A DNA stretch of 64,000 nt from NCBI GenBank assembly GCA_948144175.1, contig CANXME010000853.1:124001-188000 (forward strand), in the 5' to 3' direction. Position 1 is the stretch's first letter; each line of letters begins with the position of its first letter. Positions 8,077 through 60,260 of the stretch are shown here, piece by piece. The stretch comes from Closterium sp. NIES-65 (taxonomy: Eukaryota > Streptophyta > Zygnematophyceae > Desmidiales > Closteriaceae). The notes beneath the pieces are model-generated. The model was given only the letters and a program-made list of their open reading frames with translations, was not told where the DNA came from and did not search any database. A program made the position numbers and the translations under genes.

Positions 8077-8088
8077 AGGAGGTCCTTC

Positions 8089-12727: not shown

Positions 12728-12894
12728 GGCGGGGGTGTCGGGCAAGCTCAGCGAGAGCCTCGGTCGTGGCCGTGCGTGCTTGCGAGAGAGCACTACGAGC
12801 GGCGGTGCTGTATCGCTGAGAGACGTCTACCCCCCCAAAAAAATTGAGATAGTGGGGAAGCGAAGGTGTGGATGCGGTCCGAGCTGAGATCGTA

Positions 12895-13252: not shown

Positions 13253-13268
13253 CGTTCCCACTAGGGAA

Positions 13269-39016: not shown

Positions 39017-40140
39017 CATTCTCACTCGACGACTCTCGGCTAAGCAGCGGTCGCGGAAAAAATGGCCTCGAAAAACCGCCGGGGGCGACCAGTTCGACGC
39101 CGATTTCTGGCAAGCACCAGTTCCGCGCTTTTCGAATTAACCCCCTCGCGTGGTTTCTGAACAGGATGGGTTCGCCGGCGACCAACGACGTTACGCAGCA
39201 GCTCTTCGCGCAAATCGCCAAGATGGAAGCGGAGATGCGAGTGACGACTGAACGGTCGCGATTGGAGAACGAGCAGCTGCGAAACGAATTGCAGCGCGTT
39301 ACGCAGCTCCTCTCGACCATGAACATTCCTGCTTCGACGACTTCGCATCAGTCGCAGCTTCAGTTCGAGGTTCCGAAACTTCGCTCGCCGGAATCGTTCG
39401 ACCCTAGCGATCGAAAATCTGACGTCAGGAGGTGGCTCGCGACGATGGAAATATATTTTGCGGCGATCGGATGGTCGACGACAGAGTACGACGGCAAGAA
39501 AATTCGTCTCGCGACAACGTTGATGCGCGGTCCAGCTCTCGAGTGGCTCGGAAGCAACAGTAGCATTTTCCAGGGCGAAGCCACGTGGCAGCAGTTCCAG
39601 GCAGACCTTCTGGAACGTTTTGAGCCGATTAATTCCACTTATATTGCGCGCGAAAAATTACATCACCATAGGCAATTCGGGAGTGTCGCGCAATACACGC
39701 AGCAGATGGAGGAATTTTATAATCGCATTCCTGACATTACCGAGGGCGAAAAAATTTAGTCCTACATCGCGGGGCTGAAAACCGACATTCGACGCCAGGT
39801 TGCAGCAGCGAATTGCAGCAGCTACAGCGAAATCGTATCGGCCGCGGAGCGTTTTGACTTGGTCAACTCCGGAACACGACGGCCCCACGTCGTCGGATCA
39901 CGACAAGGGGATCGCTCGGCTTCAACCACGTTCGCCGACCCCATGGAAGTCGACAAATTCGATGCGAATTCACGACCTGCAAAAAACAAAACGTTTTGCG
40001 AATTTTGCGGCGGAAACGGACATCGGATTGTCGACTATTTTCACATGAAATCTTCATGTGCGGCATTCCGAGCTCCTGGGAGTGACGAAACTAAAGACAA
40101 AAAGTCAAAAAACGGATCTCGCCAGTGATTGCGGATCGTG
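39004..40140 (+). pseudogene. Chromovirus E gag
   Basis: The frame opens after the primer site. A coiled region with LARLE-like heptads (residues near QLFAQIAKMEAEMRV) precedes the Gag core block MRGPALEWLGSNSS and FGSVAQYTQQMEEFYNRIP. A zinc-knuckle-like block CEFCGGNGHRIVDYF follows near 40,000. Gag packages the element RNA. Fossil with few breaks. Confidence 0.82.
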
Positions 40141-40479
40141 CTGGCGAGGAAAAGCAGATCCGAAAGCGTCAGCGCAATCTGGACCGAATCGAAATTGAAG
40201 GACAGCATTGGGCGCGAGATTTCGAGAATCAAGGGCGAAATCCCAAGCCCCTTGACCGAAATTTGTCAGAGGGATTCGCCGAGGAAAATAAAACCTCCGC
40301 GAAAACAGACTCGACCAAGACGGGAACTCTCCAATTCGACCCCGGAAAAAAACAGAATTCGTTAAAGTTATCTTTCAAAGATGCTTTAATAAAGACTGGT
40401 AATTTTCGCGGGTCCAGAGCCATAAACAAATTCCGGGAAGAACTCCAGAGGAAGCAGACAATTAAAGAAGTGGTACCGG

Positions 40480-40600
40480 TGTCAAATTATAATATTGTGT
40501 AGGCTATAGTGGGGTAGCCTATATGGGGTACACATTTCTAGGGTTGCATATTTGTATCACTTCCATTCCTTAGTCATTCATTCTCGTTCACATCTTCTCA
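40480..40600 (+). repeat. Copia D 5' LTR
   Basis: Begins tgtcaaattataatattg and ends catcttctca. At 121 bp it is very short for a Copia LTR. The primer site follows directly at 40,601. Confidence 0.95.
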
Positions 40601-40813
40601 TGGTATCGAGCAGGTCCCCCGAGCCGCCCGAGCCGCCTGATCAGCCGAGTCGTCGGTGCCGCGGAGCCGCAGTCGCTACTGAGCCGTCCGAGCAGCCGTG
40701 TTGCCGTATTACTGCACTACTGAGCTGCCCGACTTGCCCTGTCTGGTGAGACCAGCGCTTCTGTCACTGCACTGCCCCTGTCCTACAGTTGGTCTCACTA
40801 GTCTACTGCTGTC

Positions 40814-42050
40814 ATGGCTTCCCCTAGTGTTCTCGCTTTTGACGCTGAGGGTCGGGCCATTGACTTTGAGGTTTGGGTAGATGACCTGCAGCTCTTCTTA
40901 CAGTGCGATAGGGTAGACGGTCTCTCCCTCTTTGACCTCACCTCTGTCGCCTCTCCTGCCCATGCTGCTGATGGTGACCCCACTGTTCGCTCCCAGTGGG
41001 CCACGCACGATGCTGCTGCACGTCTTGCTGTGCGTCGCCACCTGCCTACCTCTGAGCGCGCGCACTTTAGTCAGTACAAGAGTGCTCACACCTTATACGA
41101 CGCTGTAGTTGCGCGCTACTCTTCCCCTGCCACTGCTGCACTGAGCCGCCTCATGCTACCGTACCTCTTTCCTGACCTTGCTGCCTTTCCCACAATCGCT
41201 GACCTTGTTACGCACCTCCGCACTAGTGACAGTCGCTACCGCGCCGCAGTTCCTGTTGAGTTCTGCGCCAAGAATCCCCCCCCCATGTACATCACTCTCT
41301 ATTATATAGTCACTCGCCTCCCTGACTCCCTTCGCGTAGTCAGGGACCACTTCCTCTCAGTCTGTCCCACCACTCTCACTGTTGACCTCCTAGAGAAGGC
41401 CCACCTTGCAGCGGAGAAGAGCATAGTCGCTGTAGGAGCCTCTCGTGGTGACCCTCGCACCCCCATCTTTGAGGGGTGTTCCCCTTCCCCCCTGTTGCCC
41501 TCTGTCGCCTCTTCTGCTGCGACCGACCTCGTTGGTCTTGAGTCGGTCGGTGCGGCGTCTGCCCCTAGCGGGAGACGCCGCTCCGGCAAGGGCAAGGGGA
41601 GCAAGGGCGCGGGTGGGGCTAGCGGGGGTGGTGGAGGTGGCGGTGGGGGCGGCGGGGGGACTGGGGGTGGCGGTGGGAGTGGTGGCGGGGGTGGAGGTGG
41701 CAGTGGCAGCGGCGGAGGCGGAGGCGGCGGTGGCGGTAGCGGTGGGAGCGGAGGCGGCGGTGGCGGCGGAGGTGGAGACGGCGGTGGTGGAGGAGGTGGA
41801 GCTGGTCGGGGTGGTACTTCTCAGTGGAGCGGCTCCGGGAGTGGTCAGCGCCAGCAGCAGCAGTAGCAGCAGCATTCTCGGGACATCCCCCCTCCTCAGC
41901 AGCTCCGTGAGTGGTACACGCAGCGTCAGCGTGGTGGGGGTTTTGGCCCGTGCACCTACGTCCTCCGCTCCAGTGACCGCGCGGGTGAGCAGTGTGGGGG
42001 TGCTCACCCCACCCAGCGCTGTTTTGGCCGCCTGACGCACGCTTGACGTC
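40814..42050 (+). pseudogene. Copia D gag
   Basis: The N-terminus (MASPSVLAFDAEGRAIDF) opens an almost 350-codon frame with the Gag core, the YITLYYIVTRLPDSLRVV block and a long glycine-rich tract. It is followed by the QQLREWY block and the Cys/His block CTYVLRSSDRAGEQCGG. It is the best-preserved copy of this gag in the window. Confidence 0.85.
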
Positions 42051-42148
42051 AGCAGTTCCCGTAGGCCACTGAGATCCCCCGCTGGGGAGAGCTGTCTAGG
42101 GCAGGCGTAGCTATCTTTGATCTTGACTTTGATGCTATCCTTGCTGCC

Positions 42149-43760
42149 ATGTATGCTGTGACAATTAGTGATGAGGGTGACTGTTACCGGTGTTTCCCGC
42201 CCGACCTGGGCATTGGTACTGCTGCTCTAGGTACTGGTGAGGCTGCTGCTCTAGGTGCCAGTGCGTCCGCGCCCTCAGGTGCTGGTGAGTCTGCGCTCTC
42301 AGGTACCAAGTCGGCTTCGGCCTCCCTCACCTTCACACTTGACTCAGGGGCTTCTCGCTCCTTCTTTCGAGACTGCACCACACTCATGCCGCTTGGTCGG
42401 CCAGTTGCAGTCTCCCTGGCAGACCCCTCTAGGGGTCCTGTCCTCTCTAACTTCTCCACTGTCCTCCCGTGTCCGGCTGCCCCCTCTGGCACCTTGTCAG
42501 GTCTTTACCTCCCCTCGTTCTCTACAAACTTGGTGAATGGTGCTGACCTGCAGGATACGGGGGTTCACCAGTTCACTCCTACGAGTCAGCGGGTGACCCA
42601 CTGCACGGACGCTCGGACAGGCCGACACCTAGCCACGTTTACACGTCGGCCAGGGTCGAGCCTGTACACACTGAGTCTCCTCCAGTCAGTGCGTCTGGTC
42701 AGGTAGCTGCGTCGGGTCAGGTGTTTGCTGCAGCGTCCAGGTCTGGTCCAGAGTCTGCCCCCTGCTCGTGCGCCTCCTGTCTCACGAGAATCTCCTCTGG
42801 CACCACTGTCTTGGTCACCCCTCCCTGCCTCGTCTCCGAGGCATGGCTTCCCGTGTCCTTGTCTCTGGTCTTCCCCGGTCCCTCCCTCCCCTTCCTCCGG
42901 GGCCTGGTCCTTCCTTTGTCCCTTGTGTCGAGGGGCGGCTCCGAGCTGCCCCTCACTCCTCTCAGTTTCCCCCGACAAAGGCTCCGCTGCAGACGCTTCA
43001 CATGGACGTGTGGGGCCCGGCCCGCGTACGTGGACAGGGTCACGAGCGCTACTTCCTGCTGGTGGTTGACGACTACTCGCGTTACACCACAGTCTTCCCC
43101 TTGCGCAGCAAGGGTGATGTCGTTGAGGTGTTGATCAACTGGATCCGCGCAGCTCATCTCCAGCTCAGGAGGAGCTTCGCCTCGGACTTTCCTGTTCTGC
43201 GTCTGCACTCTGACCGAGGCGGAGAGTTCTCCTCTGGCCTTCTGCGAGCCTACTGCTGTGCGCGAGGCATCTGCCAGACCTTTACGCTTCCGGACTCTCC
43301 ACAGCAAAATGAGATTGCTGAGCGCCGCATTGGCATGGTCATGGACGTCGCTCGTACGTCCATGATGCATGCGGCTGCCCCCCATTTTCTGTGGCCGTTT
43401 GCGGTTCAGTATGCGGCGCATCAGATCAACCTTCACCCCAGAGTCTCTAGACCGGAGACCTCCCCAGCCTTGCTGTGGACAGGGAAGGTCGGCGATGCGT
43501 CTGCGTTCCGTGTCTGGGGATCTCGGGCGTTTGTGCGCAACTTGTCTGCGGACTAGCTGTCCCCTGGTGCTGCTCCTTGTGTCTTCCTTGGCTTCCCCCC
43601 TGACGCCCCTGGGTGGCAGTTCTACCACCCCACCTCTCGTCGTGTTCTGTCCTCCCAGGACGTCACGTTCGACGAGTCAGTACCCTACAACCGCCTCTTC
43701 CCATACCGCACTCCTTCCCTCCCCCCGCCACCGCACTTCCTTGTGCCAGGTCCCCCCCTG
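42149..43760 (+). pseudogene. Copia D protease and integrase
   Basis: The protease block LTFTLDSGASRSFFRD lies near 42,330. The zinc-binding GAG-pre-integrase segment (WHHCLGHPSLPRLRGM) and the integrase core with LHMDVWGP, LHSDRGGEFSS and SPQQNEIAERR follow. Order and spacing match B. Fossil with a few breaks. Confidence 0.85.
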
Positions 43761-45179
43761 GTAGACCCCCTCCCCCCTCAGGGTCCTGCCCCTTCAGGTG
43801 TGTCCCAGGTAGATGCAGTTGATCCAGTCGAGGTTGCTGGTGACTTTGGTATTGCTCCGGGTGCTGAGCTTGGGGGTGCTGCGTCTAGGGATGGTGCGAC
43901 AGGGGGTGCTGAGCCTGGGGGTGCTGAGCGTGGGGGTGCTACGACTTGGGGTGCTGAGCCTGGGGGTGCTATGACTGGGGGTGCTGAGCCTAGGGGTCCT
44001 TCGCCTGGGGGTGCTGCGTCTGGAGCTGCTGAGCCTGGGGGTGCTGAGTCTGGAGCTAGTGAGCCTGGGGGTGCAGAGCCCGCGGCCGCAGGACCTGCTC
44101 GTGTGGCGTCTGGCGGTGCTGGGCCTGCTGGTTCTTCGGGTGCTTCGTTTCGGCAGGAGCCACTCTCTCCACTGGAACTGCGTGAGTGGTTTGCCCGGCG
44201 CTGGAGGCGTACTACTGGAGCTGGTGCTTCTTCCACTGCTGAGGGTGTTGGTGCCGCCGGTCTCGGAGGTGCTAGTGCTGCGAGTGCTACTGGAGTCGGA
44301 GCTGCTGAGGGTGTTGGCGCTGAGGCTACTGCTGTCAGTCCTGGCGGCGGTCCTGCTGCAGGTGCTACAGGTGCTGCTGGAGGTACTTAAGCTGGAGGTG
44401 CTGTTGACGCTGGTGCTGCCGCTGGGGGTACTGATGCTGTCCGTGCTGTGTCTGGAGTCGCCGCGCGGCCTCGGCCGTACTTTGTTCCGCTCCTTCAGCA
44501 GGTTCTTGGTCTTCCTCCTCCCTTAGAGTGTCCACCGCCTGTCCAGTCGCAGTCGCAGTTACCACCGGTCTCCCCACTGCCTTCTCCTTCTCCGTACACT
44601 GGTCCTTCTGGAGGTCTTGCTGAGCGTCGTGAGCCTGCGTCTCGTTCTGCGTCGCCTGTTCGTGCTGCTTGCACTAGTGGTCGCAGTTCGCGTCAGCGTC
44701 CTCCTCCTGTCCTTGGCATGCACCGGATGTCTCTGCGTCCGTCCACTGCTCCTCTGCGTGCCCCTTTGCCTTCTCCTCCTGAGTCCTCTCTTCCTGTGCT
44801 TGCCGACCCTGAGTCGGACTCTCTTCGTGCTGCCAGTCCTACCGTCCCGCGTCTCCTTGCTACTATCGTCACTGACCCCTCCTTTGAGTCCACTGCTGCG
44901 TCTTCTCTTGTTGCTGAGCGTCGACTTTGCTGCTTGCTGTCGTCTAGACTACGCTGCTAGTCTTGTTGCTGAGTCTGCGTCTGTCTGTCCTCCGTCCGTC
45001 GGGGGTGAGTGTGCTCTTGGCACGGACGTCCTTGAGGACAGGCAGGAGGAGTTCTAGGGTCTGGCTGCTGCTTCACCTCATCTCGCGTCCGTACTGCTTA
45101 CCCCTGAGGGAGACCCGGATGCACTAGACATCGCGACGCTGCGCTCTTACGCGGAGGCCGTAGAGGGTCCCTACTCCTC

Positions 45180-46640
45180 TCAGTGGCAGGCAGCTATGGA
45201 TGCAGAGATGGCTTCTTGGAGGTCCACAGGCACCTACGCTTACGCGGTTCCTCCTCCTGGGGCGAGCATCATCAGTGGCATGTGGATCTTCAGGGTGAAG
45301 CGGCCGCCGGGCTCTCCACCTGTCTTCAAGGCGCGGTACGTGGCTCGTGGCTTCAGTCAGCGGCAGGGAGTTGACTACTTTCAGACCTTCTCTCCCACCC
45401 CAAAGATGACCACTCTTCGGGTGCTGCTACACATAGCCGCGCAGCGTGACTACGAGCTTCACTCCCTTGACTTCAGCACTCCTTTCCTGCAGGGTAGCCT
45501 GCACGAGGAGATCAGGCTGCGCCGTCCACCTGGCTTCACTGGGACTTTCCCTCCTTGCACCCAGTGGAGCCTCCGGCGGCCAGTCTACGGTCTTCGCCAG
45601 GCACCGCGTGAGTGGCACGACACACTGAGGACTACGCTTGCAGCTCTTGGGTTTGCTCCCTCTACTGGTGACCCGTCGTTGTTTCTGCACACCGACACCT
45701 TTCTGCCGCTGTTCTACATCCTCCTGTACGACGACGACTTGGTCTTTGCCACTGCTGACACTGCTGGACTCGCCCACGTGAAGTCCGAGCTGCAGAAGAG
45801 ACACACATGCACAGACCTGGGTGAACTGCGCAGCTACCTTGGCTTGCAGATCACCCGGGACAGAGCACGCCGCACCATTACCCTGACTCAGTCACACATG
45901 GTGCAGCAGGTCCTTCAGCGCTTCGACTTTACGTACTCCTCGCCTCAGGCCACTCCTCTGCCTACTCGCCACTCGCTCTCAGCTCTGCCTTCGGATGAGT
46001 CCGTAGAGTCGAGAGGCCCGTACCCAGAGCTTGTTGGCTGCCTCATGTACCTGATGACCTGCACACGACCTGACCTTGCATACCCTCTTAGCATTCTTGC
46101 ACGCTATGTTGCTCTTGGGAGACACAGACCAGAGCACATGGCTGCAGCGAAGAGGGTGTTGCGCTACTTGTGCAGTACGTCGGGCATGGGGCTAGTGCTT
46201 GGAGGGCGGAGTCCAGTGGTCCTCACTGGGCACGCGGACTCTTCTTGGGCAGACGACCAGGCTACGCAGCGGTCGTCACAGGGTTACACCTTCAGCCTTG
46301 GTTCCGGCTCTGTTTTGTGGCGGGCTACTCGCTCGTCTTCTGTTCTCGGCTCCAGTTGTGAGGCTGAGATCTACGCCGGGGCCATGGCTGCTCTGGAGCT
46401 TCGCTAGCTTTCCTACCTGCTGAGTGACCTCGGAGAGCCGCCTCGTTCTCCTCCGGTGCTGTACGTAGACAACAAGGCCATGCTAGCCTTGTGTTGGGAG
46501 CAGCGCTTGGAGAACAGAACGAAGCACATTGCTCTTCGCTCCTTTCTTGCTCGTGACTTGCAGCAGTGTGGTCAGTTGCGACTTGCGTACGTGGCCTCTG
46601 AGGCCAACAGTGCTGATGTTTTCACCAAGGTACTCCGCCT
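45180..46640 (+). pseudogene. Copia D reverse transcriptase and RNase H
   Basis: The frame runs over about 400 codons: SGMWIFRVKRPPG, FSPTPKMTTLRVLLH, LDFSTPFLQGSLHEEI, the catalytic block reading ILLYDDDLVFA, GELRSYLGLQITRD, then RNase H with LTGHADSSWADDQ and SSCEAEIYAGAMAALELR. A Ser/Pro-rich linker from 43,760 to 45,180 joins it to integrase. Confidence 0.88.
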
Positions 46641-46913
46641 TGTGATCATCAGCGCTTCTGCACTCAGCTGGGTCTTGTGCCTGTCTTGCCTCACTTGCTC
46701 ACCCCTTGACCTTGCTTGTACTCTTACATATATATATACCTGCTCTTGCTTGTTTAGCCTTATATATATGTGTACTCCTGCATGTGAACTGGCCTTGTGG
46801 CCTTGACCTTGTGCTTGGACTGTGTGGTGACGTTGTGATCCACCCCGAGCTTTGTCTGCTTTGCTTGACTGGTCTTGTGACCCTTGTTATTCCCCACTTT
46901 GCCTATGGGGGTG

Positions 46914-47034
46914 TGTCAAATTATAATATTGTGTAGGCTATAGTAGGGTAGCCTATATGGGGTACACATTTCTAGGGTTGCATATTTGTATCACTTCCAT
47001 TCCTTAGTCATTCATTCTTGTTCACATCTTCTCA
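46914..47034 (+). repeat. Copia D 3' LTR
   Basis: The 121-bp repeat is identical to the 5' LTR but for two positions, both transitions. The duplication accgg follows at 47,035-47,039. The polypurine tract (tatgggggtg) lies directly upstream. Confidence 0.95.
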
Positions 47035-47039
47035 ACCGG

Positions 47040-49740
47040 TGCCTACGGAGATGGGGAAAAAATTAAGGAGTGTGGAAAGGAGTAGACCTTTTCACGGCGT
47101 TAACGTTCTCTCCCGGATCCAGCCCAAGACGACTCTCCACTCCCCAGGGAAGAAGTCTATGGAGCTGAAGCAGCTGAAGAGGCAGCTGGGAGTTCAAAAG
47201 AAGCTGCGGGAACACCGAAAACCCCTCCAGGATGCATCCAGTGGATCGCAGGTGTCAACCGGATCCACCCTCTCAGGGTCAACCTGTACGGTTACTACCT
47301 CTACTCGTGGCGTTGGAGAGGAGCTTTTCTCCACCCAGCCCAGGCCAGCTGGTTGTCCAGGAGCAAACAGTGGAACCACGGTGTGTACTGAATATTGGGA
47401 TGTACCATATGATCCTATTAATGAGACTATTTTTGGGTACTTCGAGCAACGCTCACCACTCCTGCTCGAGGTGATCTGCAACGGACTGCGCCTCCAAGCA
47501 CTCGTGGACAGCGGGGCGTCGCACCGCGTCTATGACAAAAAGGCAATCAATCGAATCGAAGGTGAAATCAAGTCCTCAAGCTTCTCTACAACGATGGTGG
47601 ATGGCAGTAAGCTACCTATCTACGGGGAAACACGGTTACTACTCCAGATTGGACCCCTCAGATGGAAGCCTGCTCTCCCCGTCACAAATATCAAAGGACT
47701 CGACGTAATCTTCGGGAGAGACTTTCTTAAAAAGTTCAACCTTGAGATCAACTGGGTTAACCGGACGGCCAACATCAACAACAACGGGAGGAAAATCAGC
47801 CTTCCCAAATGGGGTTAACACGGGAAATATTCCAGTCGAGACACTCGCACGCTTTGAAAAGGACGTCAAACGGACCACGGCGGGATTCATGGCGATAGTC
47901 AACGAAGCAGACAACGGGGAGAAGCAGACCCAGGAACTTCCTCCAGCAGTCAAGAAAATTCTTGAAGAGTTCCAGGACGTTCTCCCCGATGATTTACCTG
48001 ATCAACTACCGCCATACCGAACACATCAACACGAGATCGTAGAAGAGCCGGGGTCCAAGCCAACGTTCCGAGCACCATACCGGCTGAGCCCGACAGAGCT
48101 TGCCAATATGAAAAAACAAATAGAGTATCTCCCGGAGAAAGGGCTGATTCGACCTTCGACTTCGCCGTACGGAGCTCCACTTCTCTTCACTCCAAAGCTA
48201 GACGGAGGTCTGCGAATGTGCATCGACTACCGAGCCTTGAACAAGCAGACTGTAAAAAATAAATACCCGATACCACGGATCGACGACTTACTCGATCAAC
48301 TTCGCGGTGCTACGGTATTCTCCAAGCTCGACCTCAGATCGGGATACTGGCAAATTCGTATGGTGGACAACTCTATCCACAAAACCGCCTTTCGAACTCG
48401 GTATGGGTCATACGAGTATCTCGTGATGCCGTTCGGACTCACTAACGCACCACCCACATTTCAGGCGGAAATGAACCACATCCTTCGGCCCCTTCTGGAC
48501 GAGTGCGTGGTGGTATATTTGGACGATATCCTGATCTACTCGAAAGACATGAAGAAGCACATTGAGCATCTGCGACGGGTGTTTGAAATTCTTCAACGAG
48601 AACGCTTCTACGTGAAACTATCCAAGAGCGATTTTGCGTTGGAAAAAGTCCAGTTCCTTGGACATATGGTGAGCGCTCAAGGAGTTCACGTTGATCCTAA
48701 GAAGATCGAAGCAGTGCGAACGTGGAAGACCCCTGAGAACGTGAAGGAGTTACAACAGTTCCTTGGATTCGCCTTCTACTACAACCGGTTCGTACCGAAC
48801 TACGCCAAGATTGCCGCACCATTAACGAACCTGTTGAAGAAGAATACACCATATCAATGGGAGGCGAAGCACCAGGAAGCCGTGGAACAACTTAAAACCG
48901 CACTCACGTCCGCACCTGTCCTTATCCTGCCAGACACTGAACTTGACTATGTCATCGAGGCCGATGCTAGCGATCAAGCAGTGGGCGCAGTACTCATGCA
49001 CGATCAAGGGAAGGGACTGCAACCCATTGCATACCTCAGTAAAAAACTTCACGGGGCAGATGTCAATTACCCCATCCATGACAAAGAGGCCCTCGCCATC
49101 GTCAACACATTTAAGGCATGGAGGTGTTATCTTGAAGGAAGAAAAACGACTGTCTACACCGACCACTGCTGCCTCAAGTACCTGAAGACCCAACCAACAC
49201 TCTCCAGGCGGCAGGTCCGGTGGATTGACTTTCTCGAAACCCACTTCCATTACGACATCGTGTATAAGCCGGGGCACAAGAACAAGGCAGACGCACTAAG
49301 TCGCCCTGCACACGTTGCCGCCTTACAAATCGATGGCATGAACCCACTTTTGAAGGGACTCTTCACGCATGGATACACCATCGACCCCGAAGTCTCCGTA
49401 GCAGAAAAGCGCCATCTTCTATATTGGGATCAAGACATCGCATACCGCAAGGGCTCCACAAAAATATGGGTACCTAATTACCCTCCCTTACGCCAGTTAC
49501 TGCTCGAAGAATATCATGATGTTCTCTACGCAGGCCACTTTGGTAGTAACAAGACGCTTGCCGGTATTGCGAAGCATTATTATTGGCCCCACATGGCGGA
49601 TGACGTACACAAATTCGTCACCTCGTGCGACACATGCCAACGGATGAAGAGCAGCAAACAGAAGAAAGCAGGGTTACTACAGCCTCTTCCAGTCCCTGAA
49701 CAGCCTTGGCAAGTGGTTAGCCTCGACTTCATCACCGGGT
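47040..49740 (+). pseudogene. Chromovirus E protease, reverse transcriptase, RNase H
   Basis: The protease site ALVDSGASHRVYD lies near 47,505 and [12 protein letters not shown] near 47,710. RT follows with [42 protein letters not shown] and catalytic [10 protein letters not shown], then RNase H with [11 protein letters not shown] and the integrase zinc block [20 protein letters not shown]. Most of it is one open stretch. Confidence 0.9.
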
Positions 49741-50786
49741 AATCACCTACCAAAGCTGGTTACGACGCCTTTCTAGTCGTCATCGACAAATTCTCCAAAA
49801 TGGGACACTTCATTCCGACACACACAACGGCTCGTACCGAGGAGACAGCGCTATTATTCTTCCGCTACGTCATCTCGCAACATGGCATTCCAACTACGCT
49901 GATCTCCGACAGAGACCCGAAATTCACGAGTAAGTTCTGGAAGGAGCTCATGTCGCTCATGGGGACCAAACTCGCCATGTCATCAGCCTATCATCCCCAA
50001 ACGGATGGTCAGACAGAGCGCCTCAACCAGATTGTCGAACAACTTCTGCGAACAGCGTGTAAGGACGATATCTCTAAATGGGATGCACATCTGCCAGTTC
50101 TCGAGTTTGCGTATAACAACGCCACGCACGCCGCAACAGGGCAAACTCCTTTCTTCCTCTGTTACGGTCGCAACCCACTCACGCCTCAGAAACCAACAGT
50201 ACCCGCCACGGTGCAACCCGCACATGACTTCATTTCCACTATGCACCAATTGTGGGAGCGCACGCATAAACGTCTTCTGACTATCCAGCAGCATCAAAAG
50301 AAGCTCGCTGATCGGAGTCGCAATGATCATTCCATCAAGATTGGCGATCAAGTGCTTCTGGATACATGCAATCTCGACATTAGCCATCTTCCGTCTAAGC
50401 TCCGACCTCGCTTCTGCGGACCTTTTCTCGTCGAGGCGCAGGTCACTCCAGTAACCTTCCGCTTGCGTTTACCAGCTACCTGGAGAATTCACAATGCCTT
50501 CCATGTTCAACTTCTCAAGCCCTATCGGGACCCAAACACGGTCTTCAAAGGTCGCCAGCCGCCGCCGCCACTGCCAGTGATCGTTAATGGGGAACCCGAG
50601 TACGAAGTCGAAGCCGTTCTGGCGCACCGACGACGACGTCGCGACACCTTGGAGCTCTTGATTCGTTGGAAAGGCTATGATCCTTCCGAGGATACCTGGG
50701 TACCTGAACACGACATGGATAACGCCCGCCGTCCTCTCCAGGACTACCTTGTAAAGCAGGGTGTTACTTCTACCACCCAGCTTTGA
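49740..50786 (+). pseudogene. Chromovirus E integrase core and chromodomain
   Basis: The DDE core shows LISDRDPKFTSKFWKEL and SSAYHPQTDGQTERLN. The C-terminus carries a chromodomain with LLIRWKGYDPSEDTWVPE, the classical aromatic-cage type. This places E in the chromoviruses. The domain in E is closer to a canonical chromodomain than the one in M. Confidence 0.92.
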
Positions 50787-50792
50787 GGGAAG

Positions 50793-51194
50793 TGTGAGAG
50801 GACGTCCGCGTTATAATATTTTCTCACTATTATATTTTTCCGTTATCCTATTCTCCCTTTTCTCCTCTTTATTTTGGTATTTATCTCATCTCAATCGGCC
50901 TACTATTCTATTTTCTAGAGCCTTCTATTTATCTCTCTTATTTCCTACTTATCCCAGCGACATACCTATTATACGGCACCGACAGCGCCGACAGTGGTGT
51001 ATACGGTGTAATCTGGGCGTAATCCCAAGTGCCAATAGCCTTGCGTACTTGTGCGCACTTGTGATTGTAGTATCGGGAAGGGCGTGTTCCCGAAGGTTCG
51101 TTTTATCTCGTTTATCCTTGTATTTTCCGAGTATAAAAATGCCTTGTATTCAATTTTAGTGACAAGTTTCGATTGAGAATTCGATCCTGTGACA
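50793..51194 (+). repeat. E 3' LTR
   Basis: The 402-bp partner of 38,601-39,002, with about 10 differences. It starts after a purine-rich tract (tttgagggaag) and is followed by the duplication gtagg at 51,195. Confidence 0.95.
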
Positions 51195-51561: not shown

Positions 51562-53087
51562 GTCACTCAAGAAGCGTCTGAGTGCCTAGTGAGGACAACT
51601 GAGCTCCGCCCTCCAACCACGAGCCCCGTGCCCGATGTACTGCACAAGTAGCGCAGTACCCTCTTCGCAGCATCCCAGTGCACCTTTTCGTGCCTACCAG
51701 GAGCCACGTAGCGTGCCAGAAGGCCAAGAGGGTACGCGAGGTTAAGACGAGTGCAGGTCATCAGGTACATGAGGCCGCCCACTAGCTCTGGGTACGGGCC
51801 ATTCGGCTCTACGGACTCGTCCGAAGGTGGAGCTGAGAGCGAGTGACCGGTAGCCAGAGGAGTGGACTGTGGCGAGGACCAAGTGAAGCCGAAGCGCTGA
51901 AGGACCTGCTGCACTATGTGTGGCTGAGTCAGTGTGATGGTGCACCGTGCTCCGTCCCGGGTGATCTGCAGCCCAAGGTAGCTGCACAGCTCACCTAGGT
52001 CTGTGCATGTGTGTCTCTTCTGCAGCTCCGACTTCACAAGGGCGAGAGCCTCGGTTCCAGCAGTGGCAAAGTCCAAGTCGTTGACGTAGACGAGGATGTA
52101 GAACGACAGCAACGAAGTGTCGGTGCGCAGAAACAGCGACGGGTCAGTAGTGGAAGGTGCAAACCCAAGAGCCGCAAGTGTCGTCCTCAGTGTGTCGTGC
52201 CACTTACGAGGCGCCTGACGGAGACCGTAGACTGGCCGCTGGAGGCTCCATTGGGTACCATGAGGGAACGACCCAGTGAAGCCAGGTGGGCGGCGCAGCC
52301 GGATCTCCTCGTGCAGACTGCCCTGTAAGAACGCTGTGCTGAAGTCCAGAGAGTGAAGCTCGTAGTCACGCTGAGTGGCGACGTGCAGCAGTCGCCAAAG
52401 AGTGGTCATCTTCGGGGTGGGGGAGAAGGTCTGGAAGAAGTCAACTCCCTGTTGCTGACGGAATCCTTGTGCAACGTAACGAGCCTTGAAGACAGGCAGA
52501 GAACCCGACGGCCGCTTCACCATGAAAATCCACATGCCATCAACTACGTTCGCCCCAGGAGGGGGAACTGCGTCGACGTAAGTGCCTGAGGACTTCTGCC
52601 ACTGAGAGGAGTACTCACCCGCGATCGCCTCCGCGTAAGAGCGCGGGGTCGGGATGTCTGGAGCATCCGGGTCTCCCTCAGGGGCACGCATCATGGCCAC
52701 GAGATGAGACATAGTGGCTGCAAGACACTCAAAGTCCTCCTGCCTATCCTCAAGGACGTCCGTGCCAAGAGCACACTCACCCCCGATGGACGGAGGACAG
52801 ACAGATTCAGACTCAGCAACAAGACTAGGAGCGAAGTCTAGACGACAGGCGGCAGCAAAGTCAACAAGGTTAGGGACTAAGGCAGACGCAGTAGTAGACT
52901 CAAACGACGGTTTAGTGACAACAGTGGCTAGCAAACGAGTGACAGTAGGGTGAGCAGCACGAACCAGGTCAGACTCAGGGTCCTGAACGTCAGGCAGAGA
53001 AGACTCAGGAGGAGACGGCAGGGGAACACGCTGTGGAACAGAGGAAGGACGAAGTGCCATAGCGTGCACGCCAGGGTTAGGAGGCGA
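51562..53087 (-). pseudogene. Copia F linker and reverse transcriptase
   Basis: An open stretch of about 500 codons on the minus strand. It includes the linker, SYAEAIAGEYSSQW, FMVKRPSGSLPVFKARY, VDFFQTFSPTPKMTTL, LDFSTAFLQGSLHEEIRL, the catalytic segment ILVYVNDLDFA and GELCSYLGLQITRD. It ends at the C insertion in the RNase H block. It is well preserved for a layer this old. Confidence 0.85.
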
Positions 53088-53092
53088 ACGCT

Positions 53093-53510
53093 TGTCACTG
53101 CATATGCAGTTAATGCATATGCAATAACAGTAGAATGATGGTATAGTGTGGGCTTCATACTAAGACCATAGGAAGACTATATAGGAATAAGAGTATAAGT
53201 AATAGGAGTAGTATGTAGCGAAGTTACTATTAGGAGCGAGGGTGTAGAAGGGGGGAAACCGGATAGGAGCGGTTGAGATAAAAAGGGGGAAAGACTTCGA
53301 AGGGCGAAATGTGAAACCAATCAACCCCAGCCTCGAGCCGCACATTTGGAAATGTACAGCCAGGGGTGGGGTAAGGTCACTCACCTCCAACCCATCGATA
53401 CTTTCTTGTTGTTATTGTCTCGAACTAGTGAAGGTTGTTGATTCCAGCTTTAGCACACTGCAGCACATCACTAAGAGGGAACCTACGGGGTGTAGGACTG
53501 AGCTCCTTCA
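53093..53510 (+). repeat. Element I 5' LTR
   Basis: Begins tgtcactgcatatgcagtta and ends gagctccttca. It matches 58,687-59,104 at equal length. I could not assign the tRNA for the primer site that should follow; sequence after 53,510 does not fit initiator tRNA-Met. Confidence 0.88.
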
Positions 53511-53597
53511 TAACAACGAGAAAGGTGAGACGGTAGTCTTGTAGCGCGGGCTATATGGACAAGTACAAGCTGCGCTGGGGTAGGGTGTTCAGCCGAC

Positions 53598-54180
53598 GTG
53601 AGGAAGAGCGGGTGCGACGTGAACCGTCACGAGAACGTGGGCGGTCCTGAGAGCGATCGCCACGCCGACCAGCCTTCCGCGTGGATCGGGTCCCGGCCAC
53701 GAGGGACGGTCGAACAGAAAATGCGAGAGCGGATGCCGAAGGATCGGATCGAAATGCGTGGCTGCGCGAGGGCGCACGCGGGACTGGCGCGGAGGGCGGA
53801 AGCCACCGCGACGCAGGGGTGTTCTACCCGCCGGAAGATCGCGGACAGCGCCGCGATGAGAGAGGTCGTTGGCGAGTATTCGAGGAACGACGCCGCGGAC
53901 TGGGAGAGAACAGCAGTGGCGACGCTCGCGAAGGGGGCTCGCAGGAGAAGGTGGCCCAGGAACCGACGCAGGAGAGGGACGCGGGAGAAGATGAAGGGGA
54001 ATAAAGAATGCCGGATGAGGAGGCGGAGGTGGAAAGGGCGGATGAGACGCAATCAGAGGGAACGGGCGAGGCGGAAACCCTGCCGGCGGAAGAGCACAGG
54101 GGGATAAGCCAGGCGACGGTGTATGGTAGAGATGAGGAAGGGGAGGAAGTGGAGCAGGATGTGTAGTGTGCCCTTATGGC
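53598..54180 (+). pseudogene. Element I gag-like charged region
   Basis: Frames here are very rich in Arg, Glu, Asp and Gly, as in the C-terminal parts of Gag proteins of some algal Gypsy elements. I do not see a Gag core or zinc knuckle and the assignment rests on position. Confidence 0.4.
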
Positions 54181-54329
54181 CTGGAGAAGAAGGGAGGAAA
54201 TAGGGCTGCGGAGCGGGGGTAAAGATGGCAGGCGTGAGCTGGGAAAGAAGGAACAGGTGAAGGGAGAGAAGCCAGCCGAGCCAGCCCTGGAGCGAGCCCC
54301 CGCACGACATCCCCAAGAGAGGCTGGCGT

Positions 54330-54790
54330 GCCAGACCTCCGTGCTATTGCTGGAGAAGGGGGCCACGGAAGTGGAAGGGGAGAAGGTAAAGGCAGCCATC
54401 ATAGATACGGGGGCGCAGAGCGTGATGTTGGGCAAGGGGATGGCTGAAAGGCAAGGGGATGGCTGAAAGGCTAGGGCTGCTGGCGCCGGAGAGACATGTG
54501 AAAAAGGGGATGTTGGTGATGACAGCGGAAGGGGGGGAACCTAAGTGGATGCCGTGCACACGAACGCCCATAGAAGTGACGCTGCTGCCGGGGGGGGAGC
54601 ACGAGACCAAAATCCGCACGAAGTGCGGAATCTCTGAGTCGGAAGACTTTGACGTGTTGGTGGGCACCGAGCTGGTGTATGCGGTAGGGATGAGAATATG
54701 CACATGGACGGAGAAGGTTGAGTTTAGGATGAGGTACTGGAAGAAGGAGGGGCCGCTGGGAGAGCTGCCAGTGCGGTTTGTGAAGGTAGT
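54330..54790 (+). pseudogene. Element I aspartic protease
   Basis: The active-site block AAIIDTGAQSVMLGKGM lies near 54,390-54,440, followed by the flap region and DVLVGTELVYAVGMRI, the second conserved retropepsin block. It precedes the methyltransferase-like region. Confidence 0.8.
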
Positions 54791-55640
54791 GGTGAGGAGG
54801 ATGGCAGAGCACCATGCGAGGAAGCTGCAAGCGGATTATCCAGAATTGTTGAGTGAGAGAGTGATCAGAGAAGCTATGGGGGGGACGGCCCACGATGTGA
54901 AGGAGATGAGTGAGGCGGAGGTGGCGAGCTGGGGGCAGGTAGATCTGCTTGTGGCAGGGTGGGAATGCCAAGGGGTGTCATGGGCAGGCAAATGGAAGGG
55001 AGAAGGAGATCAGAGGACAAGGCTGATGGAGGAGCTGTTCCGAATCCTGGAATGGCTATAGGAGAGGCAGGGCAGGGTGGCGTACTTGCTAGAGAACATG
55101 GACCTAGAGGGAGATAGCAGGGAGCCGATCCGACTGGTGAGGGACAGAATCAGGGGGCAGTTGGGAGAAAGGGTGAGCTGTGATGCGGCCAGAATGGGGT
55201 CGTATGCGCGCAGGCTCAGAATGTATTGGCAGAATGTGGTCCCTGCCGTGCAGCTGCAAGCAGAGATAGAGGGGGTAAAGCGAGCAGCAGAGCGGAAGGT
55301 GCAGGAAATCAAGGCGCCAGGACGTACCCCAGCGCCAGTGTGTCGCAAGAGCTACAACAGGCATGAGCAATGCAACCAAGCGGGGCAAGAGCGGCGAGCC
55401 CTGCCCACTCTGGTGGCATATGTGGGGGCAGTAGGGTGCAAGTGGGAAGCAGGGCAGCCTGGTCCGGGGATGGTGTATGATCATGGGAGGAAGAGATGGG
55501 AGGAGCCCACGGCACTCGAGCGGGAGCTGGCTATGGGGTACGGAGAAGATGCAACAGCTGCACCCGGGGCGAGTGAGGCGGACAGGAGGAGGGCTCTGGG
55601 GAATGCAATGGACGGCCACGTGCTGAGGTGGCTAGTGCAG
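54790..55640 (+). pseudogene. Cytosine-5 DNA methyltransferase-like domain in element I
   Basis: Visible C5-methyltransferase signatures are motif IV with the catalytic Cys (DLLVAGWECQGVSWAGK; ECQ in place of the usual PCQ), motif VI (YLLENMDLEG, the E-N pair), a motif VIII-like stretch (DAARMGSYARRLRMYWQN), a target-recognition-like stretch (ALPTLVAYVGAVG then GMVYDHGRKRWEEP), an ERELAMGYG block and motif X (LGNAMDGHVLRWL). Spacing fits prokaryotic and algal C5 methyltransferases. It lies between protease and RT. From memory, cytosine-methyltransferase-bearing retrotransposons are known in dinoflagellates and a charophyte alga. Whether this copy was ever active is not knowable here; the copy is broken. 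Confidence 0.85.
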
Positions 55641-55849
55641 CGGATGTGGCGAGAGATGGTCGTGAGCTGGGGGCAGGAAGAAGAGAAGGGAGGAGTGGAT
55701 GCAGAGCCGCGGGGAGCATGGAGCTGCCAGGAGATGGGGGAAGAGAGCTGGGTGGTAGGGGAAGCAATGAGCAAGGAAGGGAAGGATGCCATGCAGGAGC
55801 TGCTGGCCAGGCACAGGAATTGCTTCGCCTTCACAATGCAAGAACTGGG

Positions 55850-57150
55850 GAGGTGCAAGGTGAAGGAGATGGAGCTGAAGCTGAGCAGCACAGAACAAGT
55901 GTTCCACCGCAGGAGGAAGATGCCGCCAGGGGACGAGGAAATCTGCAAGGAGAAGATCAAGGAGCTGCTGGAAGCGGGGCTGATTAGGAGATTAGAATCC
56001 GAGTACGCCACACCGACAGTGGTGGCAGCCAGGCGAGACCTGACAGGGGAGGTGCTGAGCAGGATGATGTGCGGGGACTACCGGGCGCTTAACAAAATCA
56101 CCGTAGCAGATAGGTACCCGATGTGGATGGCAGAAGAGATCTTTGATAAGTTAGCGGAAGGGGTGTTCTTCACCACGCTGGACCTGTGGTAGGGGTTCAA
56201 CCAGATCAAGATCCGGGAAGAGGGCATCAAGAAGACGGCCTTTCATGGGCCAGAAGGCCTAAACGAGTGGTTGTACATGCCATTTGGACTGGGGAACGCA
56301 TCAGCGGTGTTCCAGAGGGTCATGGACAGTGTGCTGCGGGGGGTGGAGTGCACGGCCTGCTACATCGATGATGTGGTAATCTTCAGCACGACCGAGCAGC
56401 AGCACCTTCTGGATATGGAGAGGACCCTGACGGCGATCGAAGTAGCAGGACTCACCTGCCACCCGAAGAAGTGCATATGGGGGGAACAGACAGTGCAGTA
56501 TCTGGGGTATGAGGTGAAAGGGGGGCAGATCGGGATCCAACAGGCCAAGGTAGAAGTCCTGGACAGACTAAGGGAGCCAAAGGACAAGTCAGGGCTGAGG
56601 GCGGTGCTGGGCTTTCTGAGCTACTACAGGCGGTTTGTACCCAACTTCAGCAAGAGAGCAGCGGTGCTGAATGGACTGTTGCGGGAGGACAAGGCATGGG
56701 AGTGGGGAGAGGCACAGAAAGGGGCACTCCAGGATCTGATGGCAGCAGTGAAGACTGCAACGGTGCTCAAGCTGCCCACGGCCGACCTCCCGTTCACATT
56801 GTACACTGACTGGAGCAGCCAAGGGATGGGGGGGATACTCTGTCAAGAGGTGGAGGGAGAGGAGAAGGTGGTGGCATACGCCAACAGGAGCTGCAACTCG
56901 GCAGAGGCGCAGTACATCTCATACATAGGGGAAGGACTGGCGGCCATGTGGGTTGTGGGGCACTTCAGAGTATACTTGCAGGGGAGGGAGTTCACCTTGG
57001 TGACAGATCACCAGCCCTTGACGTGGCTAATGACCACCCCGGGGTTGACGGGAAGGAATGCACGGTGGGCTATGAAGCTGCAAGAGCATGACTTCAAAAT
57101 TAAGCACAGGCCAGGGAAGACACTGCAGCACGTGGACGGTCTCTCACGGA
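55850..57150 (+). pseudogene. Element I reverse transcriptase and RNase H
   Basis: RT blocks include RRRKMPPGDEEICKEKI, CGDYRALNKITVADRYP, MPFGLGNASAVFQRVM and catalytic CYIDDVVIFS. RNase H shows LYTDWSSQGMGGIL, the REFTLVTDHQPLTWLM block and HRPGKTLQHVDGLSR. The order protease-RT-RH-integrase defines Ty3/Gypsy. Confidence 0.88.
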
Positions 57151-57399
57151 ACCCCCCACCGCCAGAGCCCACCGTTACCTTAACACTGCTGGCTAGGCAA
57201 GCAGAGTTGAGTGGGGCCAAGGGGGAGAAGGGGCCAGCAGACATTTGGGAGGATGAACCGGCCATGCGGTGGGTGAAGGGAGAGACAGGAGAGGACGAGG
57301 AGCTGACAGTGTGGGTGAGGGCAAGGGGACTGCACTACAGATGGTACCAGCAGCAGCTGCAGGTGCAGACGGAAGATGGGTGGAAGCTGGTGCCGGCAC

Positions 57400-58550
57400 C
57401 AAGTGAGAGGGAGGCGGTGATCAAAGAAATACACACCAAGCTAGGGCACTTTGGGCACGACAGGACAGTGCAGCTGCTAAAGATAGGGTGGTGGTGGGAA
57501 GGGATGCGGAGGCAAGTGAAGGGGTGGGTGGAGGGCTGTGAGGCATGCCAAAGAAGCAGGGCAAACCTCATCCAAGCCAAGGCGGAGTTGCAGTCGCTGC
57601 CCATCCGAGGCTTAGGTTTCAGATGGTCCCTAGATCTGGCGCGGGAGCTGCCGCTGAGCCGGGGAGGGAAGCAATACATAGTGCTCATGGTCGAGCATGT
57701 GAGCAAGTGGCTGGAGGTGAGGGCCATCCCGAGCAAGAGCTCTAGGCACGTAGCAGCAGCGTTCAAGGAACAAGTGGTATGCAGGTTTGGGGCATGTGCA
57801 GAGGTTCTCACGGATCAAGGGACAGAGTTTCAAGGGGAGTTCAAGAATCTTCTAGAGGAGACAGGGATCACCCACAGGCGCACCTCCCGGTACCACCCAC
57901 AGAGCGATGGGCTAACTGAGCGACTTGTGCAGACCTTGAAACGGGGATTGCGAGCGTATGGGGAAAAGAGGAAGCGGGACTGGGATGAGGAGCTGCATTG
58001 GATTGCTGCAGGGTACATGTTTGGGAAGCAGGCGGCCCTGAGGGATCACTCTCCTTATAGTCTCCTATACGATTGTGAGCCGCTGCTGCCGGTGTGAGCA
58101 GCCCGGGTCCTCACAGACACGGTGACCGCAGGAACGATAGAGAACTGGGTGACGCTGTCATAGGCCAGGGCTAGATACCTACGAGTGATGATGCCAGCGG
58201 CATTGGAGAATCTCCACACCGCACAGCTGAGGGATGCGCGGAGATATGAGCAGCGGCAACAGCAAGGGGCAGGGGGGAGACCCAGGAAGGGAGTGAGTCA
58301 GGGGCAGGAAGTGTACCTAAAGCGGGCAAAGCAAGACACGCTGGATGTTGGGGAGGGCACAGAGAGATGGAGGGTGAAGGAGGTACGTCCCTCAGGGGTC
58401 TTGGTGCTGGAAAATGACAAAGGGGCACTCCTGAAGGAGCACCAGAGTAACACGGCCATGGTCAGGGGGAGCAAGCCTCAAGAGAAGGGTCCTGTGACAC
58501 GGGCTCAAGTAGCTAGAGCACGAGCACAGGAGGGGGCAGTGGGTAAGTGA
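57400..58550 (+). pseudogene. Element I integrase
   Basis: The zinc block is HTKLGHFGHDRTVQL with CEACQRSRANL. The core has RWSLDLARELP, VLTDQGTEFQGEFKN and SRYHPQSDGLTERLVQ. The C-terminal tail (about 58,180-58,550) is basic and Gln-rich with WRVKEVRPSGVLVLEN, resembling the GPY/F-type integrase end. Confidence 0.85.
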
Positions 58551-58686
58551 GGCTATGCAACCAGGAGAAGGAAGAAACAAGAGATACAGCAGGAGAAGAA
58601 CAGGTGCAGGGAGAAGAGCAGTGCAGGATGAAGAGGAGGTGCATGAAGAAGAGCAGGGGCTGAGAGGAGAAAGATTCTCCGACAGC

Positions 58687-59251
58687 TGTCATCGCATATG
58701 CACTTAATGCATATGCAATAACGGTAGAATGATGGTATAGTGTGGGCTTCATACTAAGACCATAGGAAGACTATATAGGAATAAGAGTATAAGTAATAGG
58801 AGTAGCATGTAGCGAAGTTACTGCTAGGAGCGGGGGTGTAGAAGGGGGGAAACTGGATAAGAGCGGTTGAGATAAAAAGGGGGAAAGACTTCGAAGGGCG
58901 AAATGTGAAACCAATCAACCCCAGCCCCGAGCCGCACATTTGGAAATGTGCAGCCAGGGGTGGGGTAAGGTCACTCACCTCCAACCCATCGATGCTTTCT
59001 CGTTGTTATTCTCTCGAACTAGTGAAAGTTGTTGATTCCAGCTTTAGCACACTGCAGCACATCACTAAGAGGGAACCTACGGGGTGTAGGACTGAGCTCC
59101 TTCATGTGGGTAAGTGAGGCTATGCAACCAGGAGAAGGAAGAAACAAGAGATACAGCAAGAGAAGAACATGTGCAGGGAGAGGAGCAGGTGCAGGATGAA
59201 GAGGAGGTGCATGAAGATGAGCAGGGGCTGAGAGGAGAAAGGTTCTCCGAC
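58687..59251 (+). repeat. Element I 3' LTR and trailing duplication
   Basis: The 418-bp LTR (58,687-59,104) is followed by 59,107-59,251, which repeats 58,540-58,684, the segment just upstream of the LTR (starting tgggtaagtgaggctatgca and ending ttctccgac). The flank acgct comes only after this extra copy. The duplication therefore inserted together with the element. Confidence 0.75.
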
Positions 59252-59256
59252 ACGCT

Positions 59257-59487
59257 CACGAGGAACACGACTACCAGTGCAACGCGCGCGAACATGTGAG
59301 GCAGAACGAGACGCAGGCTCACGGCGCTCTGTAAGCGATTCTGTCTGCTCAGTGTAAGGAGAAGGAGCAGGCAGTGGAGAGCCTGGCTGTAACGGAAGGC
59401 CAGTAGAAGATGGGAGGCTAAGAACCTGGCGAAGCGCGGAGTCAGGCGGTGGCAGAGACGACGGTGACGGCGGAGCGAAGAACAGTC
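59257..59487 (-). pseudogene. Copia F linker piece
   Basis: The minus strand continues the F linker beyond I, matching C at about 35,010-35,215 (shared gaggaacacgac and gcgaagaacag). It ends exactly where the J LTR begins. Confidence 0.7.
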
Positions 59488-60260
59488 TGTTGTTCAGGAT
59501 CCGTCACTTTGAGAGCTTACGACGAACTCATTACTCAACTAAACGCAAATCCGCTCGGTAGGATTGTGCGCCTTAGGCTTAGCTACCATCTCCAAGTTGA
59601 ATCTGTTGTCAAGATGGTCTATAGAGTGAGAACTGATTGAAAACGTCCAGCAGCTGCATGACTAGAATGGTGGAGGAAGTACAAGCATTAAGGCATAGGA
59701 AGTTGGAGTTGGGAACCTCCAAGAGAACCATGAGACGGAAGGGGTTCTCCAAGAGCTAGGGAAGGATGGTAGGAACCTTCCTAGCAGCAAGGATGCAACT
59801 CTCATCATGAAGTCCTTGAGGTGTCACATGCAAAATCCAATCTAGTTGGATTTTGCCTAGGTGTTGCAACATTTGCAACCCATGCTAGAAACTTCTAGCC
59901 ACCCCAATCCAAAAGTCAAAGTTGCCTTCCCTAACCACCCAACCAAAGATCCCTTTATAGTCATGTCCCAAGTAATCACCCAAATTAGATATAACCCCAA
60001 AAGGTAATAAGAAATCCAAGTCTTGGAAATCTTGTAACTTGGGCGATCTTGGTCGGAATAAGTCGATCTTGGTATCGTTGGAAAGCTCTGGATTTCTCCT
60101 TCATGATCAAGCATTTAGACTTGGTGAAAAACACAGAGATGATAATATCCAACGGCCATGCACAATGACATATGCTCATGCAGGTCATGCAAGCACAAAT
60201 AGCACGAGCACTGGGCAGGACGTTAGGATGACATGCACTCAGAATGACGTGCATCCAACA
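59488..60260 (-). repeat. Probable J 3' LTR
   Basis: Starts tgttgttcagg exactly where F homology ends and ends gtgcatccaaca directly before the polypurine tract complement. The region near 60,040-60,110 has the cttgtaact...ggaaagctc layout seen in many plant LTRs. A weakly similar segment lies at 63,130-63,300 and may be the 5' counterpart. No second copy is clear enough to measure age. Confidence 0.6.

Follow-up and report, generated by a model that had tools for sequence, protein, structure and literature searches.

The 64,000 nt stretch of Closterium sp. NIES-65 DNA analysed here (contig CANXME010000853.1, positions 124,001 to 188,000; hereafter the window) carries at 53093-59252 a decayed copy of a Ty3/Gypsy-type retrotransposon that encodes a Dnmt3-type cytosine-5 DNA methyltransferase (DNMT) domain between its protease and its reverse transcriptase (RT). 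The copy is a fossil of a kind of element that is known but thinly described, and its family adds to that kind a Dnmt3-type domain with Glu beside the catalytic Cys, and split repeats accompanied by 4 bp target duplications. With moderate confidence, we propose that in this Closterium family the DNMT, made within Gag-Pol, would methylate the element's own double-stranded DNA before or around integration, and that the ends would be restored from an internal block of repeats, B-GC-A. That transposons should encode an enzyme of the silencing type is a paradox; the cases characterized in 2018 came from a single dinoflagellate genus and a single charophyte, Klebsormidium nitens (de Mendoza et al., 2018; PMC5890265, cited throughout from part of its text), the precedent to which the original prediction for this locus, made from the sequence alone, had correctly pointed. 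The Gypsy version now turns out to form an abundant family under selection in a second class of charophytes, and a DNMT clade that includes chlorophytes makes the Klebsormidium case look less like a one-off.

The methyltransferase domain and the window copy

The proposal that a Gypsy-type element here carries a C5-methyltransferase between protease and RT is borne out by two profiles. Taken frame by frame, PF00145 passes its cut-off of 22 bits in the frame 54426-55058 (E 1.6e-5, 25 bits). The later motifs lie in the continuation of that frame (55062-56189), which alone gives no Pfam match up to E 1. When both pieces are taken as one frame, with X at the TAG codons, they reach 345 bits against positions 35-317 of a family profile built from nine related DNMT domains, which excludes a chance match. 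Motifs IV, VI, VIII and X lie where they had been placed, under a numbering that we take to be that of the C5-methyltransferases. The parts of the element are as follows.

53093-59252, plus strand: whole Ty3/Gypsy-type element, termini TGTC...GACA, 4 bp duplication CGCT at 53089-53092 and 59253-59256
53093-53511, plus strand: terminal repeat A1 (419 bp), 403/419 identical to A2
53657-54094, plus strand: probable remnant of an Arg-rich N-terminal gag region (P0025 residues 734-878, 38.6% identity, E 3e-13)
54098-54770, plus strand: gag-protease linker and aspartic protease, DTGA at 54404 (tblastn of relatives)
54801-55664, plus strand: C5-methyltransferase domain, Dnmt3-type, motifs II to X (PF00145, family profile, relatives)
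54957-54989, plus strand: motif IV with the catalytic Cys (codon 54966-54968), Glu replacing the usual Pro (G-W-E-C-Q)
55086-55103, plus strand: motif VI, seen in the sequence
55197-55235, plus strand: motif VIII, seen in the sequence
55596-55634, plus strand: motif X, seen in the sequence
55665-57160, plus strand: linker, RT and RNase H (PF00078, PF17917, PF17919), with an in-frame TAG at 56190-56192
57400-58550, plus strand: integrase (H2C2 part and DDE core) and C-terminal tail in the same frame (PF17921, PF00665)
58539-58684, plus strand: internal repeat B1, 95.9% identical to B2
58687-59105, plus strand: repeat A2, starting two bases (GC) after B1
59106-59252, plus strand: terminal repeat B2, directly abutting A2

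By sequence profile and by fold, the nearest solved structures are the catalytic domains of DNMT3A and DNMT3B, whose motif order I to X is found unrearranged in the relatives (the window copy lacks motif I), and Dnmt2-type tRNA enzymes score far below those of Dnmt3 type (24.7 versus 83 bits). Identity to DNMT3A and DNMT3B in structural alignments is, however, 21-25%, and motif IV reads Glu-Cys-Gln here and Pro-Cys-Asn there. A Pro-Cys pair in motif IV is usual for Dnmt3 methyltransferases without defining them; since all 37 Closterium rows among the database relatives have Glu or Asp in place of the Pro (Glu in 58 of the 70 other rows), 'Dnmt3-type' denotes kinship. The catalytic Cys is present in every row that has that column (37 from Closterium and 70 others), the motif VI Glu in 38 of 39 Closterium and 59 of 59 other rows, and the motif VIII Arg pair is nearly invariant; the conservation of Glu next to that Cys is puzzling for the biochemistry of C5-methyltransferases.

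The assignment to Ty3/Gypsy rests on pol, in which RT, RNase H and integrase follow in that order, the RT is of Ty3 type and the integrase is a DDE enzyme (Pfam; solved structures), with Ty3 Gag-Pol as the best solved relative of the RT-to-integrase part (E 9.8e-56). Pfam and tblastn of relatives give the order in the window copy as gag remnant, protease, DNMT, RT, RNase H and integrase; the match behind the gag remnant is of low complexity and thus weak evidence, that of PF13975 to the protease is weak and below its cut-off, and over the integrase tail the match of a database relative (P0015) reaches 58547 in the same frame. The borders are fixed at 53093 and 59252, since the flanks, when joined with one CGCT taken out, read through on the minus strand as one Copia frame of 590 aa. 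The element lies antisense within the RT region of that Copia sequence, the flanks of which extend over 51567-53092 and 59253-59503.

The window copy is dead, with its capsid and zinc-knuckle part and DNMT motif I deleted, its protease frameshifted and four in-frame stops (TAG 55059, TAG 56190, TGA 58095 and TAG 58161), the first of which (55059-55061) falls within the DNMT. No capsid or zinc-knuckle coding was found upstream of the window protease by tblastn with relatives, two of which (P0012 and P0019) have both. A short tandem duplication marks the point, at about 54432-54457, where the protease shifts frame, and motif I is missing through a deletion at about 54770-54801, where relatives have some 80 more residues between the end of the protease and 'VVRRM', including ELFGGIGAG; another copy in the same genome (L090) has 254 bases at this gap and the window 20. 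The two A repeats differ at 16 of 419 sites (Kimura two-parameter distance 0.0395), and 14 of the 16 differences are transitions. The outline of the original prediction (element, DNMT and their order) thus stands, but it had missed the death of the copy, the absence of motif I and the terminal repeats, which are unlike ordinary long terminal repeats (LTRs).

L089, a copy 98% identical to that of the window, spans the linker and protease region in 654 bases, against 673 in the window. Because it shares the target duplication, and because its 1500-base flanks match those of the window at 98.5 and 99.3%, it represents one and the same insertion, on a contig that is either duplicated or from the second haplotype, and the possibility that the deletion form of the window had itself transposed is thereby ruled out. 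This doubling (G000:C852 and G000:C520) reflects either a duplication or both haplotypes in the assembly, and copy counts may be inflated by it.

The family in the Closterium genome and the role of its methyltransferase

Across the genome (874 Mb in 2400 contigs), at least 109 scored places, possibly including duplicated contigs, match the second half of the DNMT together with the start of the RT; many of them lie in open frames of 1,000-2,490 aa, some in frames of 2,300-2,490 aa and one in a frame of 3852 aa. PF00145 gives 123 scored places, all above its cut-off, and the RT query 121. A DNMT place lies directly upstream in 59 of the first 81 RT places, so that related copies with the order protease-DNMT-RT do occur, as had been expected if the segment were not peculiar to this locus; of six inspected among the other 22, four have a whole DNMT (two of these interrupted by other sequence), one has its last part only, and one has no DNMT in the 3.5 kb examined. 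The presence of the DNMT upstream of most of these RT places makes it a family trait, and the domain belongs to the Gypsy-type family. A host DNMT fragment that landed by chance in the window copy alone, which the damage to that copy might have suggested, is refuted by the same domain in the same place in most relatives inspected, where it is under purifying selection.

The family is, or recently was, alive; 24 further copies of 10 kb each (20 and 4) were compared. In the copy L109, one frame of 2379 aa holds a zinc knuckle (743-760), protease (913-963), DNMT (1157-1228), RT (1551-1701), RNase H (1791-1892) and integrase (1999-2162), and a frame of 2462 aa in L111 has the same order, with PF00145 at 20.4 bits, just below cut-off. 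The suggestion that the DNMT is made as part of the polyprotein thus agrees with relatives that encode everything in one frame. Neither copy has a tyrosine recombinase match at E 0.01, and a DDE integrase is present in both. Among five copies of varying similarity to the window (L099, L101, L108, L109 and L111), pairwise Ka/Ks, taken with fixed codon coordinates, is 0.08-0.17 over the DNMT in nine of ten pairs, the tenth being saturated, and 0.05-0.29 over the start of the RT in all ten; Ks exceeds 1 in several pairs and is therefore approximate. The DNMT is under purifying selection, which indicates that it is useful to the element.

Because the DNMT lies in Gag-Pol and is one protein with the rest in the open-frame relatives, it should be packaged together with RT and integrase, where it would meet new cDNA. 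We suggest that it acts on the double-stranded DNA of the element around reverse transcription and integration, that new copies would already be methylated on entering chromatin, a form of self-marking, and that host CG and CHG methylation would take over afterwards. CpG values are 0.42-0.67 over DNMT, RT and integrase in 18 of 20 copies, and 0.50-0.62 over DNMT and RT in four others; the two DNMT-free Gypsy elements of the window, which served as local controls, are not depleted (0.97 and 1.16).

Several observations weigh against this proposal. The Copia flanks are also CpG-depleted (0.78 and 0.54), as is the window as a whole to 0.76, and the element's own leader (53512-54097) stands at 1.32. 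Transitions between the repeat pairs of 16 copies occur at 24 of 510 CG, 21 of 533 CHG and 32 of 2744 CHH sites; since a Dnmt3 of CG type would not explain the CHG share, this share points to host methylation after integration, which suffices for the transition signal, and CpG depletion accordingly cannot prove self-methylation. Constraint in the subfamily nearest to the window is lower than in the five copies above, where pN/pS, pooled over the 55 pairings of 11 copies whose DNMT is free of stops, is only 0.36 for the DNMT, against 0.25 for the RT and 0.38 for the linker, a level as expected with recent decay mixed in. Motif IV has Pro in all 77 motif instances of the 80 viral-contig loci retained and Glu in the Closterium element. 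Lastly, we know of no Gypsy DNMT with demonstrated activity, and of no assay other than that of the Klebsormidium enzyme in yeast. In that assay no methylation was seen, a result that its authors judged inconclusive (PMC5890265).

It is possible, though doubtful, that the DNMT has been retained for something other than catalysis, for instance DNA binding that guides or protects cDNA, and that methylation was lost through the Pro-to-Glu change. The acidic residue throughout the Closterium rows and the Glu in most others would fit such a loss, as would the absence of Glu from the viral-contig instances (0 of 77) and the yeast result for Klebsormidium (PMC5890265). The catalytic Cys and the motif VI Glu are nevertheless almost invariant and the motif VIII Arg pair nearly so, and a K. 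nitens protein of the same clade (P0044) has Pro, so that Glu would not explain the negative assay if the tested enzyme is alike. The viral-contig search, made for a source of the DNMT, retained 80 of 116 relatives (22-58% identity over parts of the domain), and a viral structure library gave matches to the DNMT at a query TM-score of at most 0.49.

That the DNMT works in trans and silences rivals, its targets being host DNA, competing elements or DNA viruses, we consider quite unlikely. The number of DNMT-RT and PF00145 places in one genome is such that they could act in trans, and an antiviral role for such domains has been proposed (PMC6338049, in the part of that text covered). The position inside Gag-Pol, however, favours packaging with RT and integrase, and the DNMT-free Gypsy elements of the window lack CpG depletion, a weak test given the depletion of the Copia flanks. 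Still less probable is a substrate of RNA, whether genomic RNA or primer tRNA, of the sort suggested for SymbioLINE by de Mendoza et al. (PMC5890265), since by profile and fold the matches are to Dnmt3 DNA enzymes, with the Dnmt2 type scoring far lower. Our preferred reading, methylation of the element's own DNA, is made testable by the family itself, which offers young long-frame copies, DNMT-free Gypsy controls and Closterium nanopore reads (PMC10407611, as described in part of that article).

Split repeats and insertion sites

The integrated form of the element is A-coding-B-A-B, with a GC spacer between B1 and A2 and none between A2 and B2. Thirteen independent complete insertions of this form occur among the window and the 24 copies (the window, L090, L091, L092, L094, L095, L097, L099, L100, L106, L107, L109 and L110, the ends of L109 and L110 having been placed by a search over small offsets); the remainder comprise L089, which is the insertion of the window, nine copies without the whole layout in their stretch, L096 among them, and two of a far subfamily, the ends of which are covered by one B-GC-A junction only. 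All 13 start with TGTCAC and end with CCGACA, 12 have the GC spacer, and 12 are flanked outside A1 and B2 by perfect 4 bp duplications, all different (L091 has none). An ordinary LTR retrotransposon is rejected, as the duplications flank A1 and B2 and not identical LTRs; the two ends are A1 and A2-B2, with an extra internal B1, and the element is accordingly Gypsy-type by its pol only. The DNMT-free Gypsy elements of the window, unlike the DNMT-bearing family, have single repeat pairs at the LTR places, of 343 bp and 99.1% identity in the element at 7700-13253 (minus strand) and of 403 bp and 97.5% in that at 38600-51194 (plus strand), which has other sequence nested inside; by eye, the C-termini of both resemble chromodomains.

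Gypsy machinery with split direct repeats misfits the textbook scheme of strand transfer, which requires identical LTRs. Restoration of ends is the role proposed for the split repeats of DIRS-like elements, and the internal B-GC-A block, as a full copy of both ends, is probably the template by which ends lost in the RNA are restored in the Closterium family. The RNA would start in A1 and end in B2, both lost ends would be copied from B-GC-A, and the DDE integrase would then insert the DNA with a 4 bp duplication.

That A-coding-B-A-B is instead a rearranged ordinary LTR element, and not the normal integrated form, is highly improbable. Far-subfamily tandem units joined by B-GC-A, as unequal crossing-over can produce, and the A-coding-A-B layout of L096 would both suit it, but L096 also lacks part of its integrase, as after an internal deletion, and the full layout is common to 13 independent insertions in two subfamilies, 12 of them within their own 4 bp duplications. 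The tandem units in question (L112, G000:C1923:2155906-2165905) are 7911 bp long and 99.95% identical over 2089 bases, and are compatible with unequal crossing-over or with a circular intermediate. PF00145 places recur at regular intervals on C995 (7064 bp) and on C382 (7088 bp) in a way that resembles L112. Just inside the GACA end, and at the corresponding place in B1, lies a 6 bp inverted repeat, GGAGAA/TTCTCC, with a 3-base loop (58666-58680 and 59234-59248), which may serve as a signal for the integrase or for priming, or may have arisen by chance.

Relatives beyond the window genome

All 13 matches of a first protein search came from Closterium sp. NIES-53 or NIES-54, Closterium being a zygnematophyte. 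Two further searches gave 48 and 83 matches, with a few repeats and with three phage-like rows in the second; the named sources were Closterium NIES-53, NIES-54, NIES-65 and Naga37s-1, Klebsormidium nitens (P0044), Haematococcus lacustris (P0060), Dunaliella salina (P0109) and Cymbomonas tetramitiformis (P0105), and many other rows were environmental. Two architectures occur. In Closterium, as in P0044 and P0048, the DNMT comes after the protease, and the latter two proteins stop directly behind it (P0044 is labelled partial); it lies between RNase H and integrase in P0041, P0050 and P0052, where the membership of P0041 rests on the family profile, its PF00145 score of 17.5 being below cut-off. 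A PHD finger follows the integrase in P0041, P0045, P0046 and P0050, though not in P0052, and is annotated in nine of the 48 matches of one search (precomputed domain column). P0046 carries a G-patch as well, and in P0045 there is a Tudor-like match below cut-off.

In a tree of 62 DNMT rows, 49 rows (Closterium, Klebsormidium-type and environmental or chlorophyte) fall on one side of a branch with support 95/99, the other side being 12 phage-like rows and DNMT3A fragments; the rows were chosen for coverage and include no host Dnmt3 of the green lineage. Three groups within the 49 are each supported, and their mutual order is not (86/52). Pro-type motif IV rows are found in Klebsormidium (P0044) and in several environmental branches. 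RT identity does not make the Closterium and environmental elements closest relatives within Gypsy, at 39.2% between the two, against 34.8% between Closterium and the DNMT-free elements of the window, which are only two outgroups.

The closest known system is KnitGypsy-Dnmt3 of K. nitens (de Mendoza et al., 2018; PMC5890265), which shares with the Closterium family the Gypsy domain set, a Dnmt3-type DNMT in the pol polyprotein and purifying selection on that DNMT. Its repeats are called 'the same as that of a DIRS retrotransposon' in the legend to Fig. 4 only, so that the combination of DIRS-like repeats with Gypsy domains rests, on the Klebsormidium side, on one legend sentence. The K. nitens protein P0044 (zinc knuckle, protease and DNMT) belongs to the DNMT clade of the Closterium family, and may be distinct from KnitGypsy itself. 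The Closterium family differs in coming from another algal class, with a mean DNMT identity of 33.9% to P0044 and P0048, in its motif IV Glu in place of Pro and in a single frame that runs from gag through to integrase. It is also documented by its target duplications and by a large number of copies, in distinction from KnitGypsy-Dnmt3.

Other retrotransposons with C5-DNMTs are SymbioDIRS-Dnmt3 and SymbioLINE-Dnmt of Symbiodinium (PMC5890265). The former has A-coding-B-A-B repeats and a DNMT in pol, as in Closterium, and two SymbioDIRS copies methylated CG in yeast, but the Symbiodinium elements have tyrosine recombinase or LINE machinery and no DDE integrase in the descriptions covered. The PAT group of DIRS elements (PMC4157794, in the part of its text covered) likewise combines A1-B1-A2-B2 split direct repeats with a methyltransferase domain; these elements are described as having a tyrosine recombinase and no integrase, whereas the Closterium family has a DDE integrase, 4 bp duplications and a C5 enzyme.

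We raise tentatively, as a rather unlikely generalization, that retrotransposons of unrelated kinds tend to combine a DNA methyltransferase with split direct repeats (PAT/DIRS with adenine or Dnmt3-type enzymes, Gypsy with Dnmt3), the methylase serving a free, double-stranded and possibly circular intermediate, the ends of which would be remade from the internal B-A block. In that case the Gypsy branch would be an old green-algal lineage with a Glu-type Dnmt3, to which a PHD reader was added in a chlorophyte-like branch. Against such an association, Ngaro and Viper are described as having split direct repeats without a methyltransferase (PMC4157794).

As far as literature searches reach, the Closterium family is new, as are the DNMT clade with members in Haematococcus, Dunaliella, Cymbomonas and environmental sequences, the environmental form in which the DNMT has moved before the integrase and a PHD finger is present, and the motif IV Glu of most members. 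The open literature, taken without supplements and subscription journals, yielded no further account of DNMTs carried by Gypsy elements in Closterium or chlorophytes, nor of the PHD form; the parts covered of PMC9861306, PMC11244446 and PMC10407611 name no DNMT-bearing Gypsy element of these algae, and in the main text of the last, on Closterium genome size, the words Gypsy, LTR and methyltransferase are absent. Elsewhere in the window, self-matches reveal minisatellite-like tandem repeats at 14816-15404 (period about 57 bases) and 23642-24182 (about 83 bases).
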